From a virus, in the IMG/VR virus record IMGVR_UViG_3300046167_000257, positions 1 to 29,827 of that record: DNA of 29,827 nucleotides; one strand, written 5' to 3'. Both the position numbers and the translations under genes were made by a program. How positions within the stretch are numbered: position 1 is the first letter of the stretch; every line of letters starts with the position of its first letter. Below the pieces are notes generated by a model that saw nothing but the letters and a program-made list of their open reading frames with translations, ran no database searches and was not told where the DNA came from. Positions 2,136 through 22,248 of the stretch are shown here, one piece after another.

Positions 2136-2444
2136 TTAAAAAGGTAAATCATAATTAACCATAAACCATCTGTCACCATTTGTATGACCTTCGGTATATT
2201 CACCACCAATGTAGTTTGCATACTTCTTAACCCAAATGTTAAACTTCTTTTGTGTTAACCATTTCTTATAATCTTGGTAATCATTCACAAACTGATCATA
2301 CATATTGCGTTTGTTCAATCTAATATTAAACAATTCAGTTCCATCATAATTGCACCACTCATAAAACTCTTGTGATGTTTCACTAATGAATTTACGAAGT
2401 TTGATATTCTTTGCATTGGTTTGTTTAATTAGTTTATGTGTGAA
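2136..2444 (-). CDS. Primase-helicase, C-terminal fragment (frame-shifted)
   Basis: This frame continues the primase-helicase gene after a frame break. The upstream frame ends in CIQLYFHT then TAA at 2434-2436. One nucleotide over, the sequence reads on as HKLIKQTNAKNIKLRK and then FISETSQEFYEWC, a KKWLTQKKFNIWVKKYANY block and NGDRWFMV, which is the usual C-terminal tail (a winged-helix-like module) of Bacteroidota phage primase-helicases. An ATG in this frame exists at 2537, but the residues it would add overlap the upstream gene in another phase and look non-coding, so I place the start of meaningful coding at about 2444. Joining needs a +1 shift or an indel near 2437-2442 (a CACACA tract). 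Whether it is translated separately, by recoding, or not at all cannot be told. Confidence 0.7.
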   Translation of the reverse strand, partial: FTHKLIKQTNAKNIKLRKFISETSQEFYEWCNYDGTELFNIRLNKRNMYDQFVNDYQDYKKWLTQKKFNIWVKKYANYIGGEYTEGHTNGDRWFMVNYDLPF

Positions 2445-4023
2445 AGTATAATTGAATACAACCAACCATGTAATTGTCAAATCTTGCATATTCATCTTCA
2501 TCCCAGTCATCAAATAATGTACGACCAAAATCATCATATGGTGTTAAATCACTATTATAATATTGTGCTACCTCAACTTCATGCCTTCTTCGGTCATGAC
2601 TATTCCCTTCACCTTTGATTGCATAGTTAGTTGATATTAACATTTTTGGTGATTCCTCAACACCAAGTTTGATTGCATCCTTTCCTTTACGTTCTAATGT
2701 TATTCCTTCAGTGACCAAACTAAACTTTGATTCAAAGTCAAAATTCTTCTTGACATCATCAAACACTAATATTTGTGTATCTTGACTTATAGTCTGATAT
2801 GGAAACGATTTCTTATCATCAAATGACTTTCCATCTAATATGCCAACCCTTCTGATTTCTTTTAATCCTTGCACAAATAAACCTTTACCAGTTCCACCTT
2901 CAGGATTGTCACTAATTACTTCATCATTTAATATTATTGCTTTGTTGTCAATCTTATTTTTATAAGTATGTAATAAATAACCAATTGTGCATTCAATAGA
3001 TAATGGTTCACCATTACTTATGTTATTAATAAACTTTTGATAATCATTTTCAATATTGTCAGTTTCATTAAAATCCCTATCAATGATTTGGTTCTTCCAT
3101 ATATACCCATTTACATTGACATACTCATTTAAAAATACTTTGTCCTTTGTAACCTCTAAAATACCATTCCTAAATGCAATAAATGATTTGTGTTGTGTAT
3201 CATTCAACATCATCAGGTCAATTGTTTCAAGTATGGTCAGAAATGAATCAGTAAATAGGTTTTGATAAGTTGCCACATATGAATAAACATCTATCTCATT
3301 ATTGTCCAATAGATAAGATAAAACAAAATCCTTTATTATTTCAGTTGATGTTTCCGATACAATGTTAGACTGTATTTTAACAAACGATGGTTTAAGACTA
3401 TCAGCAAAGAAGAACTTTTTAAATCCATTGCGTTCTAAAAACAATTTATATTTTAAAGGATCTATCTTTATATTCTGCTTCTTATCGTAGTACCAAAAAT
3501 CATCATGTTCTGATTCATGGGATATTTGTTCATATACTTCACCATTTATGTTGTGCAGTTCCTGAACCTTTTCCTTTCCATATTTAAGGTCCTTTTTAAT
3601 ACTATCTATTTTGGACCAATCTTCAAAATACTTACAACCAAATTGTCTGATTCGATATGCACTTTTAATGGTATTAACTAAACTATCATCAATGTAATCT
3701 TCAAAGACTACATTATTTTTTACATAATTAATTGCATTAATTTCCTGAACTCCATATTCACAAAACGCACCACATATATCAAAAACAAAAGAATTTCGTT
3801 CACCAACAACATAATCCTTTTGCCAGTTGAATTTCATTATTAAATCAATCTTCTTAAAGTCATCATTGATTGGAATGGTTGGGATCTTTTCAGCAATTAA
3901 AAAACCATCATCAACCAGCTTTGGATTGTACTGTATAGCTTCATAATTAATATAAATATTTGGATCGTATGATTCGAAACAAACTCGATCAACGTTGCAA
4001 GTAGCAGCATCAAAATAGTCATA
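2434..4023 (-). CDS. Primase-helicase, central SF3/D5-like ATPase part
   Basis: This is the central part of a VirE-N/BT4734-type primase-helicase. Taking the in-frame ATG at 3837 as residue 1, the ATPase core shows Walker A GGTGKG at 314-319, Walker B VFDDV, and an SF3 motif C-like KMLISTN, followed by the DDFGRTLFDDW block typical of this family. The frame is open upstream of that ATG to about 4023 and encodes conserved primase sequence there (CNVDRVCFESYDPN), so the ATG at 3837 is internal and not the real start. The protein would unwind DNA and prime replication. The frame is severed from its N-terminus at 4023-4025 and from its C-terminus at 2434. The three frames together would give about 774 aa, a normal length for the family. 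Confidence 0.8.
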   Translation of the reverse strand, partial: YDYFDAATCNVDRVCFESYDPNIYINYEAIQYNPKLVDDGFLIAEKIPTIPINDDFKKIDLIMKFNWQKDYVVGERNSFVFDICGAFCEYGVQEINAINYVKNNVVFEDYIDDSLVNTIKSAYRIRQFGCKYFEDWSKIDSIKKDLKYGKEKVQELHNINGEVYEQISHESEHDDFWYYDKKQNIKIDPLKYKLFLERNGFKKFFFADSLKPSFVKIQSNIVSETSTEIIKDFVLSYLLDNNEIDVYSYVATYQNLFTDSFLTILETIDLMMLNDTQHKSFIAFRNGILEVTKDKVFLNEYVNVNGYIWKNQIIDRDFNETDNIENDYQKFINNISNGEPLSIECTIGYLLHTYKNKIDNKAIILNDEVISDNPEGGTGKGLFVQGLKEIRRVGILDGKSFDDKKSFPYQTISQDTQILVFDDVKKNFDFESKFSLVTEGITLERKGKDAIKLGVEESPKMLISTNYAIKGEGNSHDRRRHEVEVAQYYNSDLTPYDDFGRTLFDDWDEDEYARFDNYMVGCIQLYFHT

Positions 4024-4460
4024 AAGTGATCCTTATTAAACTGCTTAAAATATTGTTCATGTTCTTTTGCATTGCATTTTGGTATTGAAACAATGGCTTT
4101 GTATCCATTTCTTGATGGTGACATAAATACCGAAACAATATGTTTGTTTTGTTTCAGCTGGTCAAACATCATATCCATCTTATTATTTGGTATTTTATCA
4201 AAGTCCAATACCATTAAACCACTATGTTCTTTTAGTCCTGACTTTTTACGTTGTGTAAATACACCACCAAAGATAATACAAGGTAATTGATTTTTTAATT
4301 TGGAACGTGCATCACCTTCCAATGTCATCATTTTATCAATGATGTGTTTTGACTTTCCTTCCTTTATTCTTTTAAGTGATTGGTCAAGTTGGACATCATA
4401 GGGGACATCCGATGATTTAAAAAGTGATTTAAAGATTGAAATCTTTGTGTTTTTTATCAT
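3897..4460 (-). CDS. Primase-helicase, N-terminal VirE-N/BT4734-like fragment
   Basis: The first 146 residues form a recognisable VirE-N / BT4734-like domain: ISIFKSLFKSSDVPYDV at the start, a KKSGLKEHSGLMVLDFDKI block (the conserved DxDK-type acidic motif of the primase-like fold) and SPSRNGYKAIVSIP. At 4023-4025 the conserved sequence leaves this frame; the remaining 41 codons to the stop at 3897 are hydrophobic and unrelated. The true continuation (YDYFDAATCNVDRVCFESYDP) lies in the frame reached by a -1 shift, as if a TTTT run had become TTT. The start is the ATG at 4458-4460, which has a good Bacteroidota promoter 11-44 nt upstream. Loss of one base by error or mutation is the simplest reading. 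Confidence 0.78.
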   Translation of the reverse strand: MIKNTKISIFKSLFKSSDVPYDVQLDQSLKRIKEGKSKHIIDKMMTLEGDARSKLKNQLPCIIFGGVFTQRKKSGLKEHSGLMVLDFDKIPNNKMDMMFDQLKQNKHIVSVFMSPSRNGYKAIVSIPKCNAKEHEQYFKQFNKDHFMTILMLLLATLIEFVSNHTIQIFILIMKLYSTIQSWLMMVF

Positions 4461-4462
4461 AT

Positions 4463-4471
4463 TGTGGATAC
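4463..4471 (-). promoter_or_regulatory. DnaA-box-like site upstream of primase
   Basis: On the minus strand this reads GTATCCACA, one mismatch (first base) from the DnaA box TTATCCACA. It overlaps the last base of the -7 box and covers the expected transcription start of the primase promoter. The same window encodes a stand-alone DnaA domain IV protein (6697-7122). A single near-match in AT-rich DNA can arise by chance. Confidence 0.35.
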
Positions 4472-4504
4472 AAATTTATAATTTTTATTTTTAGACTAAC
4501 AAAA
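4471..4504 (-). promoter_or_regulatory. Bacteroidota-type promoter for primase operon
   Basis: On the minus strand a TTTTG (-33 element, 4500-4504) is followed by a 21-nt spacer and TAAATTTG (-7 element, 4471-4478), matching the primary sigma consensus of Bacteroidota (TTTG / TAnnTTTG). The primase ATG lies 10 nt after the -7 box, so the leader would be very short. It probably drives the replication operon from primase to the 108-aa protein. Confidence 0.6.
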
Positions 4505-4512
4505 CAAATCCT

Positions 4513-4565
4513 ATGTGTCCTCGTAAAACGCTGATAATCATATGTTTTAACGATTTAGGACACAT
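4513..4565. repeat. Inverted repeat, 9-bp perfect arms
   Basis: ATGTGTCCT at 4513-4521 is perfectly complementary to AGGACACAT at 4557-4565. Inside the arms a second partial match occurs (CGTAAAAC against GTTTTAACG), so the two halves are diverged inverted copies of a motif of about 18-20 nt. A related GCGTCCTAA sits at 4645-4653. It lies between the primase promoter and an 11-C tract, in the longest non-coding stretch of the window. It could be an operator or origin iterons. Confidence 0.55.
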
Positions 4566-4580
4566 TTATTTCCCAAGTGA

Positions 4581-4618
4581 CCCCCCCCCCCTTAAAATGA
4601 ATTTGATTTTTGTGGGGG
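4581..4618. repeat. 11-C homopolymer and hairpin
   Basis: Eleven consecutive C at 4581-4591 are followed by AAAAT (4594-4598), a 7-nt loop, ATTTT (4606-4610) and GGGGG (4614-4618), so CCCCC/GGGGG and AAAAT/ATTTT can pair as a two-part stem with a small internal loop. Nothing else in this AT-rich window resembles it. No T-tract follows on either strand, so it is not a typical terminator. The rest of 4461-4649 holds the promoter and inverted repeat listed separately and no gene I can see. An origin or secondary-structure element is possible; the exact C count should be treated as uncertain. Confidence 0.5.
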
Positions 4619-4649
4619 AGCAATAAGGGAAAAAATCTCAAAACGCGTC

Positions 4650-4808
4650 CTAATTAATAAAATGGTTAATTGCTTTGTCGATTGAACCATATGATTCCAA
4701 AACTTGCCATCCTAAATTCTCGATGTGCTTCTTTGAATAATGATCGTACGTTTCCAATCCTATTGATTGCAAATAAAAATGTCCTAAATCTTCGATTGTA
4801 TATTGCAT
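4650..4808 (-). CDS. Small hypothetical protein, 52 aa
   Basis: A short ORF beginning MQYTIEDLGHFYL and ending IDKAINHFIN; soluble, mildly acidic to neutral, predicted helical, with no domain I recognise. The ATG at 4806-4808 is preferred over an upstream start at 4838, because that one lies inside a strong terminator hairpin (4822-4852). It reads in the same direction as the primase and is separated from it by the structured 4461-4649 stretch. It lies just past the terminator of the preceding gene, so it may depend on readthrough or on its own weak promoter. Small early proteins of this type in phages often modify host functions, but nothing here shows that. Confidence 0.5.
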   Translation of the reverse strand: MQYTIEDLGHFYLQSIGLETYDHYSKKHIENLGWQVLESYGSIDKAINHFIN

Positions 4809-4821
4809 AATGTTATATATT

Positions 4822-5472: not shown

Positions 5473-5732
5473 AATTTCAAAACACAATATCAAACGAACT
5501 TAAAGACATTTTAAAGTGTTGCACAACTGTTCCTGAACGAATAAAGATTGCAGAGAAACACAACATATCAATCCACACACTTAATAGTGTGCTGGAGGGT
5601 AAACGAAATATCACATACAATAATCACGATGCAATACTTGAACTACTTGCACAGGCAATAAGCAATGCAAAGTCTTTTCATATGTCATTGATTGATTATT
5701 TTCACGAAACAAAATACATTAAATTTATATAA
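5469..5732 (+). CDS. Small putative DNA-binding protein, 87 aa
   Basis: The sequence begins MKFQNTISNELKDIL and contains a possible helix-turn-helix-like segment around residues 22-45 (PERIKIAEKHNISIHTLNSVL), where the pattern 'RIKIAEKHNIS..TLNSVLEGKR' resembles a recognition helix arrangement. This is suggestive only. It overlaps the upstream gene by 4 nt (ATGA) and is followed one base later by the ssDNA-binding-like gene. If it binds DNA it is the best candidate in the window for a regulator of the divergent promoter region, though the gene is downstream and not beside the operator. Confidence 0.5.
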   Translation: MKFQNTISNELKDILKCCTTVPERIKIAEKHNISIHTLNSVLEGKRNITYNNHDAILELLAQAISNAKSFHMSLIDYFHETKYIKFI

Positions 5733-7122: not shown

Positions 7123-7367
7123 ACCCATTAATTAAATTATACTTGCTATCACTTGAAATGATTCCATTGCTGGATGATGTCGAAATACAAGGTGTCAAAG
7201 TACAACGTGACATTAAACGAGTATCACGTACATTGGAAACCTTTGTTGTGGATGCTTGTGATTTACTTGACAAACAAGATACCAAGAATGAAATCCATGA
7301 TAAACTGGTTACTAACTTTGGCAAGTTAATGGATAGTTTAACCGAAGAAAATATTGTGAATCTGTGA
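7119..7367 (+). CDS. Hypothetical protein, 82 aa
   Basis: A small helical acidic protein (MNPLIKLYLLSLEMIPL at the start; VDACDLLDKQDTKNEIH in the middle). No recognised domain, no clear membrane segment although the first 20 residues are hydrophobic. It overlaps the DnaA-like gene and the lysis-like gene by 4 nt each (ATGA in both cases), placing it at the junction between replication and lysis genes of the plus-strand operon. Function unknown. Confidence 0.6.
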   Translation: MNPLIKLYLLSLEMIPLLDDVEIQGVKVQRDIKRVSRTLETFVVDACDLLDKQDTKNEIHDKLVTNFGKLMDSLTEENIVNL

Positions 7368-7822
7368 TTTTTCATTTATTGTTTATTTATTTATTCCAAC
7401 CCACATCATCGTTTGATGGTGTGGCAAGGGATAATTTAGTTGATGCAATTATTTTTGTTGAATCACGCAACAATCCCAACGCATGGAACAAACGCGAAGA
7501 TGCTTGTGGTGTTTTGCAGATTAGACCAATAATGATAAAAGATGTGAATCGTATTTTAAAACGCAAACAATACACCTTAAATGATAGATGGAACAAAACA
7601 AAATCCATTGAAATATTTTATATAATACAAGAATACTATTCACCAAACGGAACACCTGAACGCATTGCACGTGTTTGGAATGGTGGACCAAATGGATACA
7701 AAAAACCACAAACACTTGCCTACTGGCATAAAGTAAAACAAAATTATGAAATACTACATTCTAACACTTGGATTTGCATTAATAGTTGCATCATTAATGA
7801 TCAACGATTTAACACGCAATAA
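7364..7822 (+). CDS. Putative lytic transglycosylase (SLT-like), 152 aa
   Basis: After a short hydrophobic N-terminus (MIFHLLFIYLFQPTSS, likely signal anchor or signal peptide) the protein has the lysozyme-like pattern of SLT domains: IIFVESRNNPNAWN with the probable catalytic Glu in ESR, then DACGVLQIRPIMI (the G-x-x-Q-I motif), and a RVWNGGPNGY stretch with an aromatic/Gly motif typical of the family. It would cleave the peptidoglycan glycan strand. The last 77 nt overlap the next gene, so its C-terminal 25 residues may have little constraint. An amidase is encoded separately on the other strand (9399-9812), giving two cell-wall enzymes. Family confident, exact clade not determined. Confidence 0.75.
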   Translation: MIFHLLFIYLFQPTSSFDGVARDNLVDAIIFVESRNNPNAWNKREDACGVLQIRPIMIKDVNRILKRKQYTLNDRWNKTKSIEIFYIIQEYYSPNGTPERIARVWNGGPNGYKKPQTLAYWHKVKQNYEILHSNTWICINSCIINDQRFNTQ

Positions 7823-8000: not shown

Positions 8001-8307
8001 AAAGACTGGTGATACTTTGGTTGTTATTACCCTCAATCAAATGGATGATATTTATGTTGAACTTATTCAAAAAGATTCTCTTATGGCTCAAGCAAAAATA
8101 AACGCGTTTAAGGAACTTAAATACATCGAGTTAATAGATAGTACACGAACAAACTTTGAACGCACTCAACACGCTTTAAATAGCCTCAATGAACGTTATG
8201 ATGTTGTTTTGACCAGCAACCAAAGACAACAACACAAACTTAAACGTTCACGACAATCATTAATCATTGCAATTGGTGTAATTGCTTTGCAGATTATTTT
8301 AAAATAA
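7921..8307 (+). CDS. Exported coiled-coil protein, possible spanin partner, 128 aa
   Basis: A signal peptide (MKKKYLIITYFLLLNAFAYSQ) precedes a charged helical region (ELIQKDSLMAQAKINAFKELKY and onward, heptad-like) and a C-terminal hydrophobic segment (QSLIIAIGVIALQIILK) that could be a membrane anchor. There is no Cys after the signal peptide, so it is not a classical o-spanin lipoprotein. The layout recalls proteins near lysis genes in other Bacteroidota phages. Its start lies within the previous gene (80-nt overlap) and its stop overlaps by 9 nt the end of the convergent metallophosphoesterase frame. Role in lysis is inference. Confidence 0.5.
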   Translation: MKKKYLIITYFLLLNAFAYSQTALIDEKTGDTLVVITLNQMDDIYVELIQKDSLMAQAKINAFKELKYIELIDSTRTNFERTQHALNSLNERYDVVLTSNQRQQHKLKRSRQSLIIAIGVIALQIILK

Positions 8308-8949
8308 ATGTGTAAACCTTGCCACCTGACCATGATCTTTGTGTAATAGGAAGCCTTCAATCGCTTTTGGTGAATGCTGAAATCCATTCCGATGATGCCA
8401 TGAATCCGTACCGCTTGGTGAACGTAATGACTCAATTGTGATACCCTGATAATCTTTCGATTGCTTATGGTGAACATGGTGGGTAAAAATGTATCTGTGC
8501 TTTGTGTTTGCCCAATATTCTTTTGCCTCAACTGCCATGAGCAATGGAAGGTCATTCATCTTTGCACCATCACCATGTGTTGTGCCAATAACGTTCTGAC
8601 CATACTGAAAATATTTCCGATGTGCAATTGAACAATCAAAGGTCATGTTCTTGTTATTTCTGAACCACGTTTGAATGACATCCGCTAAAAAGAAACCACT
8701 TTGATAGTCATGGTTTGATGGATTGAATGTGAAGTGTACATCCGCCAATGGAAGCAACATTTCAAGAACATCAACATAAACTTGTTTTGCTTTTAAAAAG
8801 TTTGAATAGAACATTCCATCCGTATCTTGTGGAGTACCCGCACTCGTGGTTCTTTTGGGGCTATCGATGTGAAGTATATCGTTCCCACCAATGAAAAGTA
8901 TTTGGTCTATATTATAACCACGTGACTTTGTCAATGATACCTTGCACAC
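8299..8949 (-). CDS. Metallophosphoesterase, C-terminal fragment (frame-shifted)
   Basis: This frame holds the rest of a calcineurin-like metallophosphoesterase. It has GYNIDQILFIGGNDILH (the GGND metal motif), FNPSNHDYQSG (NHD), THGDGAK (GD), and YIFTHHVHHKQ (the late His motif). With the N-terminal frame (DPADVHIGK) these make the full set D-x-H, GND, NHD, GH-like. An ATG at 8949 opens this frame but begins inside the shared overlap; conserved sequence starts only around SRGYNID, at about 8925. The two parts must be joined by a +1 shift near 8923-8932, so the enzyme is broken as sequenced. It would hydrolyse phosphoesters, probably in nucleic acid processing. It converges on the plus-strand operon. 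Confidence 0.7.
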   Translation of the reverse strand: MCKVSLTKSRGYNIDQILFIGGNDILHIDSPKRTTSAGTPQDTDGMFYSNFLKAKQVYVDVLEMLLPLADVHFTFNPSNHDYQSGFFLADVIQTWFRNNKNMTFDCSIAHRKYFQYGQNVIGTTHGDGAKMNDLPLLMAVEAKEYWANTKHRYIFTHHVHHKQSKDYQGITIESLRSPSGTDSWHHRNGFQHSPKAIEGFLLHKDHGQVARFTHLF

Positions 8950-9421
8950 CTTCCTTCACACGTTGAACTGCAATGTTAGTGTTATAGTCCTCACCAGTTT
9001 CAAATGCTTCACAAAGTTTGCCAATGTGAACATCAGCTGGATCAACAACCAGCAAATGACCATCTTGTATTTTGGTTCGTGTTAGTGGTGGATATGTTGG
9101 TGCATAATCTTTTAAGTCATTGATTAGTTGTTCACGAATTTTATCATAATCAACTGCACCTTCAAAGTCAGGATTCTTAAAAAATAAACTTGTGTCTTTG
9201 GTTTTAACCCAACCATGTTTGACATTATGAGTTGGCACACCAGCCACTTCACAATATGTGTCAATCTTGGATTTTAAATTTAAGAAGTATTTTTTTACAC
9301 TTAACTCTGATTTTCCAGTTAAGTCACCGATTCTTTTATAATAAGTATTACGTTGCTCATTATCAAATTGCGGATACTTGTTAAAGATGTCAATCCATTC
9401 ATCCGAATAAATCCTTTTCAT
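8912..9421 (-). CDS. Metallophosphoesterase, N-terminal fragment (frame-shifted)
   Basis: The start is ATG 9419-9421 (MKRIYSDEWIDIFNKYP), 23 nt inside the end of the amidase gene; the longer frame beginning at 9484 runs deeper into the amidase in another phase and is not needed. Residues 1-60 look like a small HTH-like or winged helical region (KRIGDLTGKSELSVKKYFL), then the enzyme domain opens with VVDPADVHIGK, the first metal motif. The frame ends in a stop at 8912-8914, right where the remaining motifs (GGND, NHD, HGD) continue one base over. The composite protein would be about 373 aa. Position directly after the amidase suggests late expression. Confidence 0.7.
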   Translation of the reverse strand: MKRIYSDEWIDIFNKYPQFDNEQRNTYYKRIGDLTGKSELSVKKYFLNLKSKIDTYCEVAGVPTHNVKHGWVKTKDTSLFFKNPDFEGAVDYDKIREQLINDLKDYAPTYPPLTRTKIQDGHLLVVDPADVHIGKLCEAFETGEDYNTNIAVQRVKEGVQGIIDKVTWL

Positions 9422-9812
9422 TTTGTACATTATATGATGGACACGCTTTGTTTGAAAACTCATTGTGTCCATGTATAGTAACATCCGGATAGCAACCTTT
9501 TAACTTTTTTACAAGTCTTATGATTGAATCCTTTTGTGCTTTTGTTCTTGTGTCTTGTGGTGTTTTGCCATCTGCTTCCACACCACCAACATATGCAATT
9601 CCTATTGAATATTTGTTTTGTCCTTTAGTGTGACTTCCCATCAATTCGATCGGTCTTCCAGCATTTATGTTGCCTTTTATATCAATGACATAATGATAAC
9701 CGACATCCGACCACCCACGATTCAAATGCCATCTTCGTATGGTATCAACGCTGATGTCATCCCCTTCACGTGTTGCAGTGCAATGAATAATTATCTTATG
9801 GATTGCCCTCAT
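9399..9812 (-). CDS. N-acetylmuramoyl-L-alanine amidase (endolysin), 137 aa
   Basis: This is a single-domain amidase_2 enzyme of the T7-lysozyme type. Zinc ligands can be assigned as H10 (IIIHCTAT), H116 (IHGHNEFS) and C124 (KACPS), with K122 and Y39 (VGYHYVI) at the positions of the T7 catalytic Lys and Tyr; the spacing H116-K122-C124 equals that of T7 lysozyme. It cuts the amide bond between MurNAc and the stem peptide. Length (137 aa) is slightly below T7 lysozyme (about 150 aa). It has no signal peptide, so it would need the adjacent holin to reach the wall. It overlaps the holin gene by 4 nt. Confidence 0.9.
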   Translation of the reverse strand: MRAIHKIIIHCTATREGDDISVDTIRRWHLNRGWSDVGYHYVIDIKGNINAGRPIELMGSHTKGQNKYSIGIAYVGGVEADGKTPQDTRTKAQKDSIIRLVKKLKGCYPDVTIHGHNEFSNKACPSYNVQNEKDLFG

Positions 9813-20420: not shown

Positions 20421-20753
20421 TTAATTGAACCAGTTTGGTTTTAGTTTTTTAAGTTGTTCAATTTCTGTTTTTGTGTATGGATTTGATTTTGTTCCTTTCT
20501 TACCGCTTACTTCTTCCCACTCAAACTTCATCAAATCTTGTGGTCTTTTCATTGATTTTTGTCCTTGTGATTTTAATGTAACATATGAAATCAATCTTGC
20601 AGTTTCCCACATTGATCTTGCATTAATGTTTTCGTTCAAACGATGTCCAACATATGCATCCCATATTTCTACCATTGTATAATTATTTAAACATAAAGGA
20701 CTTTGTTTTAATGCACCCAAAACAAAACCCCTTATGAAATTATGCAATGGCAA
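20421..20753 (-). CDS. Tail assembly chaperone, frameshift-extended (GT-type) part, 110 aa
   Basis: This frame has no ATG at its start; the first in-frame start-like codon is a TTG at 20751-20753. It is read in the -1 frame relative to the preceding gene, entered at the slippery heptamer at 20759-20765, so the natural product is a fusion of the 95-aa chaperone with about 112 more residues. The sequence (PLHNFIRGFVLGA, YTMVEIWDAYVGH, SYVTLKSQGQKSMKRPQDLMKFEWEE) fits the helical C-terminal part of tail assembly chaperones that recruits tape measure and tail subunits. It lies between the G-like gene and the tape measure, the conserved position. Separate initiation at TTG is possible but unlikely. 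Confidence 0.8.
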   Translation of the reverse strand: MPLHNFIRGFVLGALKQSPLCLNNYTMVEIWDAYVGHRLNENINARSMWETARLISYVTLKSQGQKSMKRPQDLMKFEWEEVSGKKGTKSNPYTKTEIEQLKKLKPNWFN

Positions 20754-21784: not shown

Positions 21785-22248
21785 AAATTTAATTTTTTTG
21801 CTTTTCTTTTTATATACTTTTCAAGTTTATCACTTGCTTGTGTGTATATTTTATCACTCGTTTCAGAATAAGTTTTCTGAATAAAATTCTTTTTCCCAGT
21901 TGGGTTTGCTGAATGTGTTCCAACTCCGTACTCAATCCACCACGCATAAAAACCATCAAACTTCCTTGCACCTTTTCCATATTGTGGACCAACTAAAACA
22001 TTTGGATATTTTTTTGATGGTGATGTTTTGACCTTAATTGCGTTTTTTAGTTCTTGTGGTGGGTAATCAGTACCCCTTATAGTAATGGTTTCAGTTCGTT
22101 GATTTGGTGCATTTTGTTTCATCTTATCAACCACTGGTTGCATTTGCCTTCTTAATATTTTAAGAATTTCACGCCTTTTCATCTTGTCATCCAAAGATTG
22201 AATTTCAAGCATAACACCTTCAAAACCTTCAATTTTATAGTTTATCAT
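21781..22248 (-). CDS. HK97 gp10-like neck/tail component, 155 aa
   Basis: The pattern MINYKIEGFEGVMLEIQSLDDK followed by LRRQMQPVVDKMKQNAPNQ, and a WWIEYGVGTH motif near residues 109-118, is characteristic of the HK97 gp10 / phage neck protein family, in which an aromatic-rich x-E-x-G-T motif precedes the C-terminal helix. It helps join the head to the tail. Neighbours are the head-closure gene upstream and a small protein downstream, both with 4-nt overlaps. Position and motif agree, so confidence is good. Confidence 0.8.
   Translation of the reverse strand: MINYKIEGFEGVMLEIQSLDDKMKRREILKILRRQMQPVVDKMKQNAPNQRTETITIRGTDYPPQELKNAIKVKTSPSKKYPNVLVGPQYGKGARKFDGFYAWWIEYGVGTHSANPTGKKNFIQKTYSETSDKIYTQASDKLEKYIKRKAKKLNL

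Follow-up and report, generated by a model that had tools for sequence, protein, structure and literature searches.

The stretch of viral DNA analysed here, called the window in what follows (29,827 nucleotides; IMG/VR record IMGVR_UViG_3300046167_000257), raises the question of why a conserved replication gene should be spread over three reading frames. Three overlapping open frames lie on the minus strand at 3897-4460, 2434-4032 and 2136-2543, the conserved frame being left at about 4026 and the middle frame terminating at a TAA at 2436-2434. The original prediction, which saw here a single primase-helicase broken twice, had the coordinates right, with the first break at a TTT run (4025-4023) and the second beside this TAA and a CACACA tract (2442-2437). 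It left open whether the breaks reflect sequencing or assembly indels, a decaying prophage, or recoding, the last including a +1 slip at ACA-TAA-A.

Its view that the conserved sequence continues through all three frames is borne out by the domain content. The N-terminal part (3897-4460) carries the BT4734-like primase domain (PF08800, BT4734-like_N; E 3.9e-16, above the Pfam cut-off), and the middle part (2434-4032) contains most of phrog_28855 (E 8.7e-116) together with a DUF5906 match (E 2.7e-6; 28.4 bits versus a cut-off of 27.6), which we take to be D5/SF3-helicase-like. The C-terminal part (2136-2543), in the third frame, has a conserved C-terminus and matches no family of its own. Judging from these domains, this is an ordinary tailed-phage replication gene that joins a BT4734-like (archaeo-eukaryotic-type) primase to a D5-like helicase, and the real phage very probably encodes it as an intact single protein of about 774-779 aa. 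Its downstream neighbour (912-2135) encodes a distinct helicase (phrog_62; ResIII). Among annotated phage records, MW202828.1 (43% identity, labelled 'vire al domain') comes closest, and weaker matches to the gene come from Polaribacter, Flavobacterium and Bacteroides phages; these matches of the primase-helicase therefore suggest a Bacteroidota host.

The gene was compared with its homologues, as the original prediction had proposed. Among 23 relatives retrieved by a scan of IMG/VR (L002-L024), 22 have a single open frame across both break sites, as judged by their ORFs, with a continuous frame of 779-807 aa from stop to stop; that of L009 measures 706 aa, as the contig end cuts it at a point beyond both sites. 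The sole split relative, L019, carries its own one-base insertion near window position 3926, away from the sites broken in the window, and the apparent break at 3928 arises from this insertion. In an alignment of the 19 close relatives (the distant L020 and L022-L024, all intact by ORF, were omitted), the window lacks one base at about 4026 (break 1, 4022-4030) and has one base too many at about 2445 (break 2, 2437-2446) with respect to 19/19 sequences, and neither site is broken in any of the 19. Both indels are thus private to the window record, and, since neither site is broken in the aligned close relatives, the split is, on this alignment, not due to chance. The second break does exist near CACACA and TAA as predicted, but its indel lies a few bases upstream, in the T run at 2445-2443, just ahead of CACACA-TAA. 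Because the indel maps there, the TAA at 2436-2434 is just the end point of a wrong frame.

The selection acting on the gene limits how old a real break could be. Compared with seven relatives, the Ka/Ks ratio ranges from 0.014 to 0.152 in the first segment, from 0.025 to 0.082 in the second, and from 0.046 to 0.115 in the third, and the same comparison revealed no internal stops in the segments flanking both breaks. All three segments are under strong purifying selection; the primase-helicase has been maintained as a whole, and a genuine break could only have arisen very recently.

The primase-helicase is not the only gene affected. A wider search, in which the window was compared with the proteins (100 aa or longer) of 100 loci, pointed to further breaks; seven stretches of the window of >150 bases have no protein-level relative among them. 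On the minus strand, a DNA repair exonuclease (phrog_704) is divided into a 5′ part (8912-9484) and an overlapping 3′ part (8299-8949), with the window being one base long at the break, at about 8930, in comparison with 8/8 aligned relatives. A plus-strand gene (7364-7822) has a shifted 3′ end, as one base present in 8/8 aligned relatives is missing from the window at about 7742 and the frame overruns the usual stop. The window thus carries four private coding single-base indels in a 30-kb record, and a C tract at 4581-4591 is perhaps a fifth, its length being 11 bases in the window, exactly 10 in 15 of 19 relatives, and 8-9 in the others. Several further candidates were discarded: at 20433 and 21532, the ORFs behind the apparent breaks seem to run antisense to window genes; at 22029 and 27249, the indel belongs to a relative (L083 and L063/L025, respectively) and the window is unaffected; the indel at 5731 is shared with L012 and hence is not private; and that at 4814 was set aside, since some close relatives are equal in length there.

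The C tract belongs to a non-coding stretch (4461-4660) that lies upstream of the primase-helicase and is strongly conserved; in it, on the minus strand, a G8-G10 tract follows a C-rich run. The tract is present in 19 of the 23 relatives, and of the remaining four, one is cut by the contig end and three are distant. A core pattern of the stretch matches 19 places on viral contigs exactly, and the stretch has no match in Rfam; as a guess, it might be a replication origin or a regulatory element. On the other side of the gene, most close relatives carry an extra gene of ~200-217 aa between the primase-helicase and the downstream helicase (for instance L003:3660-4265, with an N6_N4_Mtase, i.e. 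DNA methylase, match), which is absent from the window and from L004, L006, L014 and L017.

Whether the window is unusually rich in breaks was assessed by a uniform scan of proteins of at least 150 aa, in which a break counted only if two or more other contigs supported it. The comparison comprised 67 records with >2 kb covered; the loci L001, L016, L019, L025 and L035 were left out, being the window itself or contigs already represented. The window showed 3 breaks in 22.2 kb versus 4 in 485.4 kb for the 67 records, a contrast that is flattered by the exclusion of dataset 3300046167, which was separated only after its counts had been seen. With 0.18 breaks expected in the window, the Poisson probability is about 0.0009, where the kilobase totals are approximate, as loci of one contig may overlap. 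These three window breaks exclude the one at 7742, which was found by a separate indel comparison and alignment. The excluded dataset resembles the window in being break-rich, with breaks in three of its five records (000405, 000811 and 000181). One of them, IMGVR_UViG_3300046167_000405 (L070, L076), accounts for six break rows, one break being counted twice; its 3.35-kb ends overlap at 92% identity and it has several private frame breaks, so that, from its sequence, this contig seems to be mis-joined and rich in errors. One apparent break each is also seen in a few comparison records. Private indels of 1-2 bases, coding or not, occur in 37 of 97 sequences, the window among the 97, a count that serves as a pointer only, because loci sharing 400 bases were grouped, which merged different contigs and lost some nearest relatives. 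Since such small indels are common elsewhere, the excess of breaks in the window rests on the scan of coding breaks.

Taken at face value, breaks in several genes (the primase-helicase, the exonuclease and the plus-strand gene at 7364) of a record that differs from all aligned relatives at these sites could mean that the indels are genuine and of very recent origin, with the window representing a phage genome that has become defective or a prophage just starting to decay. A very recent break would be compatible with the low Ka/Ks values. However, the strong constraint and the lack of extra stops in all three primase-helicase segments show nothing of the relaxed selection of a pseudogene and argue against long-term decay, leaving the decaying prophage of the original prediction poorly supported. 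Moreover, ten proteins were scanned, and those for structure, packaging and lysis mostly match their phage families over their length (a 903-aa protein has no family match), and a scan of genome contigs returned one distant relative and no near-identical prophage. We consider a recent real mutation of this kind unlikely. Much less probable is a chimeric assembly or recombination event that imprecisely joined two related phages at the break sites. The family is mosaic, with the nearest relative changing along the primase-helicase (window 2204-4500), which suggests frequent recombination in this phage group, and the related record 3300046167_000405 looks mis-joined; yet no template switch or junction is seen at the indels, where, within 60 bases, the relatives that are close on one side are about as close on the other (mismatches on either side: L003, 2/2 and 2/3 at the two sites; L012, 1/1 at site 1). 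A chimera is, in addition, a kind of assembly error and thus overlaps with the explanation we favour.

Programmed recoding, in which ribosomes would change frame at both sites (by a +1 slip at ACA-TAA-A at the second) and yield one protein, appears the least credible of the readings. Conserved sequence does resume in another frame past each break, and the second break is near a stop codon. Nevertheless, 19/19 aligned close relatives encode the protein in one frame at both sites, so the frame change is conserved in none of them, and the second indel falls upstream of ACA-TAA-A. The relatives mostly read Y-F-[K/T]-H-K-L at this point, and a slip at the stop would change this order of residues; the exonuclease and the gene at 7364 carry the same kind of private break, and no Rfam element was found within the window. 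The recoding option of the original prediction, including the slip at the stop, is thus not supported by the comparison. A combination, in which the breaks are real and recent in the window lineage and the full-length protein is still made through two ribosomal frameshifts, strikes us as equally far-fetched.

Uncorrected sequencing or assembly indels, an option that the original prediction had also listed, are the best explanation, to which we assign a probability of about 85%; this technical origin is what we infer from the sequence comparisons, because the changes are private, a single 30-kb record holds four coding indels and the gene is still under intact selection. The changes are also scattered and in excess of those in the comparison records. 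The record would then contain residual single-base errors, two in the primase-helicase, one in the exonuclease and one at the end of the plus-strand gene, and the C11 tract would probably represent one further error. A point against this explanation is that the coding indels sit outside long homopolymers. Residual indel errors are typical of long-read data and are described for long-read virome assemblies (PMC6487183), and the density seen here, 4-5 indels in a window of 30 kb, is near the order given there for polished long reads. The likeness to those assemblies consists in scattered one-base indels that split conserved genes, and the match is one of pattern and density only, a long-read platform for the window being itself inferred.

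Two frameshifts within the same replication gene would, if real, be a striking finding, but the comparison with relatives weighs against them; the breaks are probably artefactual and call for no new biology. The result serves mainly as a caution: when an essential gene is split in a metagenomic virus record, its relatives should be examined first, and only then should recoding or decay be considered. Stop-codon-dependent +1 programmed frameshifting is exemplified by prfB, and the window resembles this system in having a stop codon near its second frame change; in contrast to it, the change in the window is not conserved in relatives and maps upstream of the stop. A further parallel is with the BT4734-like primase-helicases of phrog_28855, with which the window shares the domain order, a BT4734-like N-terminal domain followed by a DUF5906/D5-like helicase, and whose close members are ~84-93% identical to it at the DNA level; they differ in keeping the gene in a single open frame, whereas the window carries two private single-base indels.
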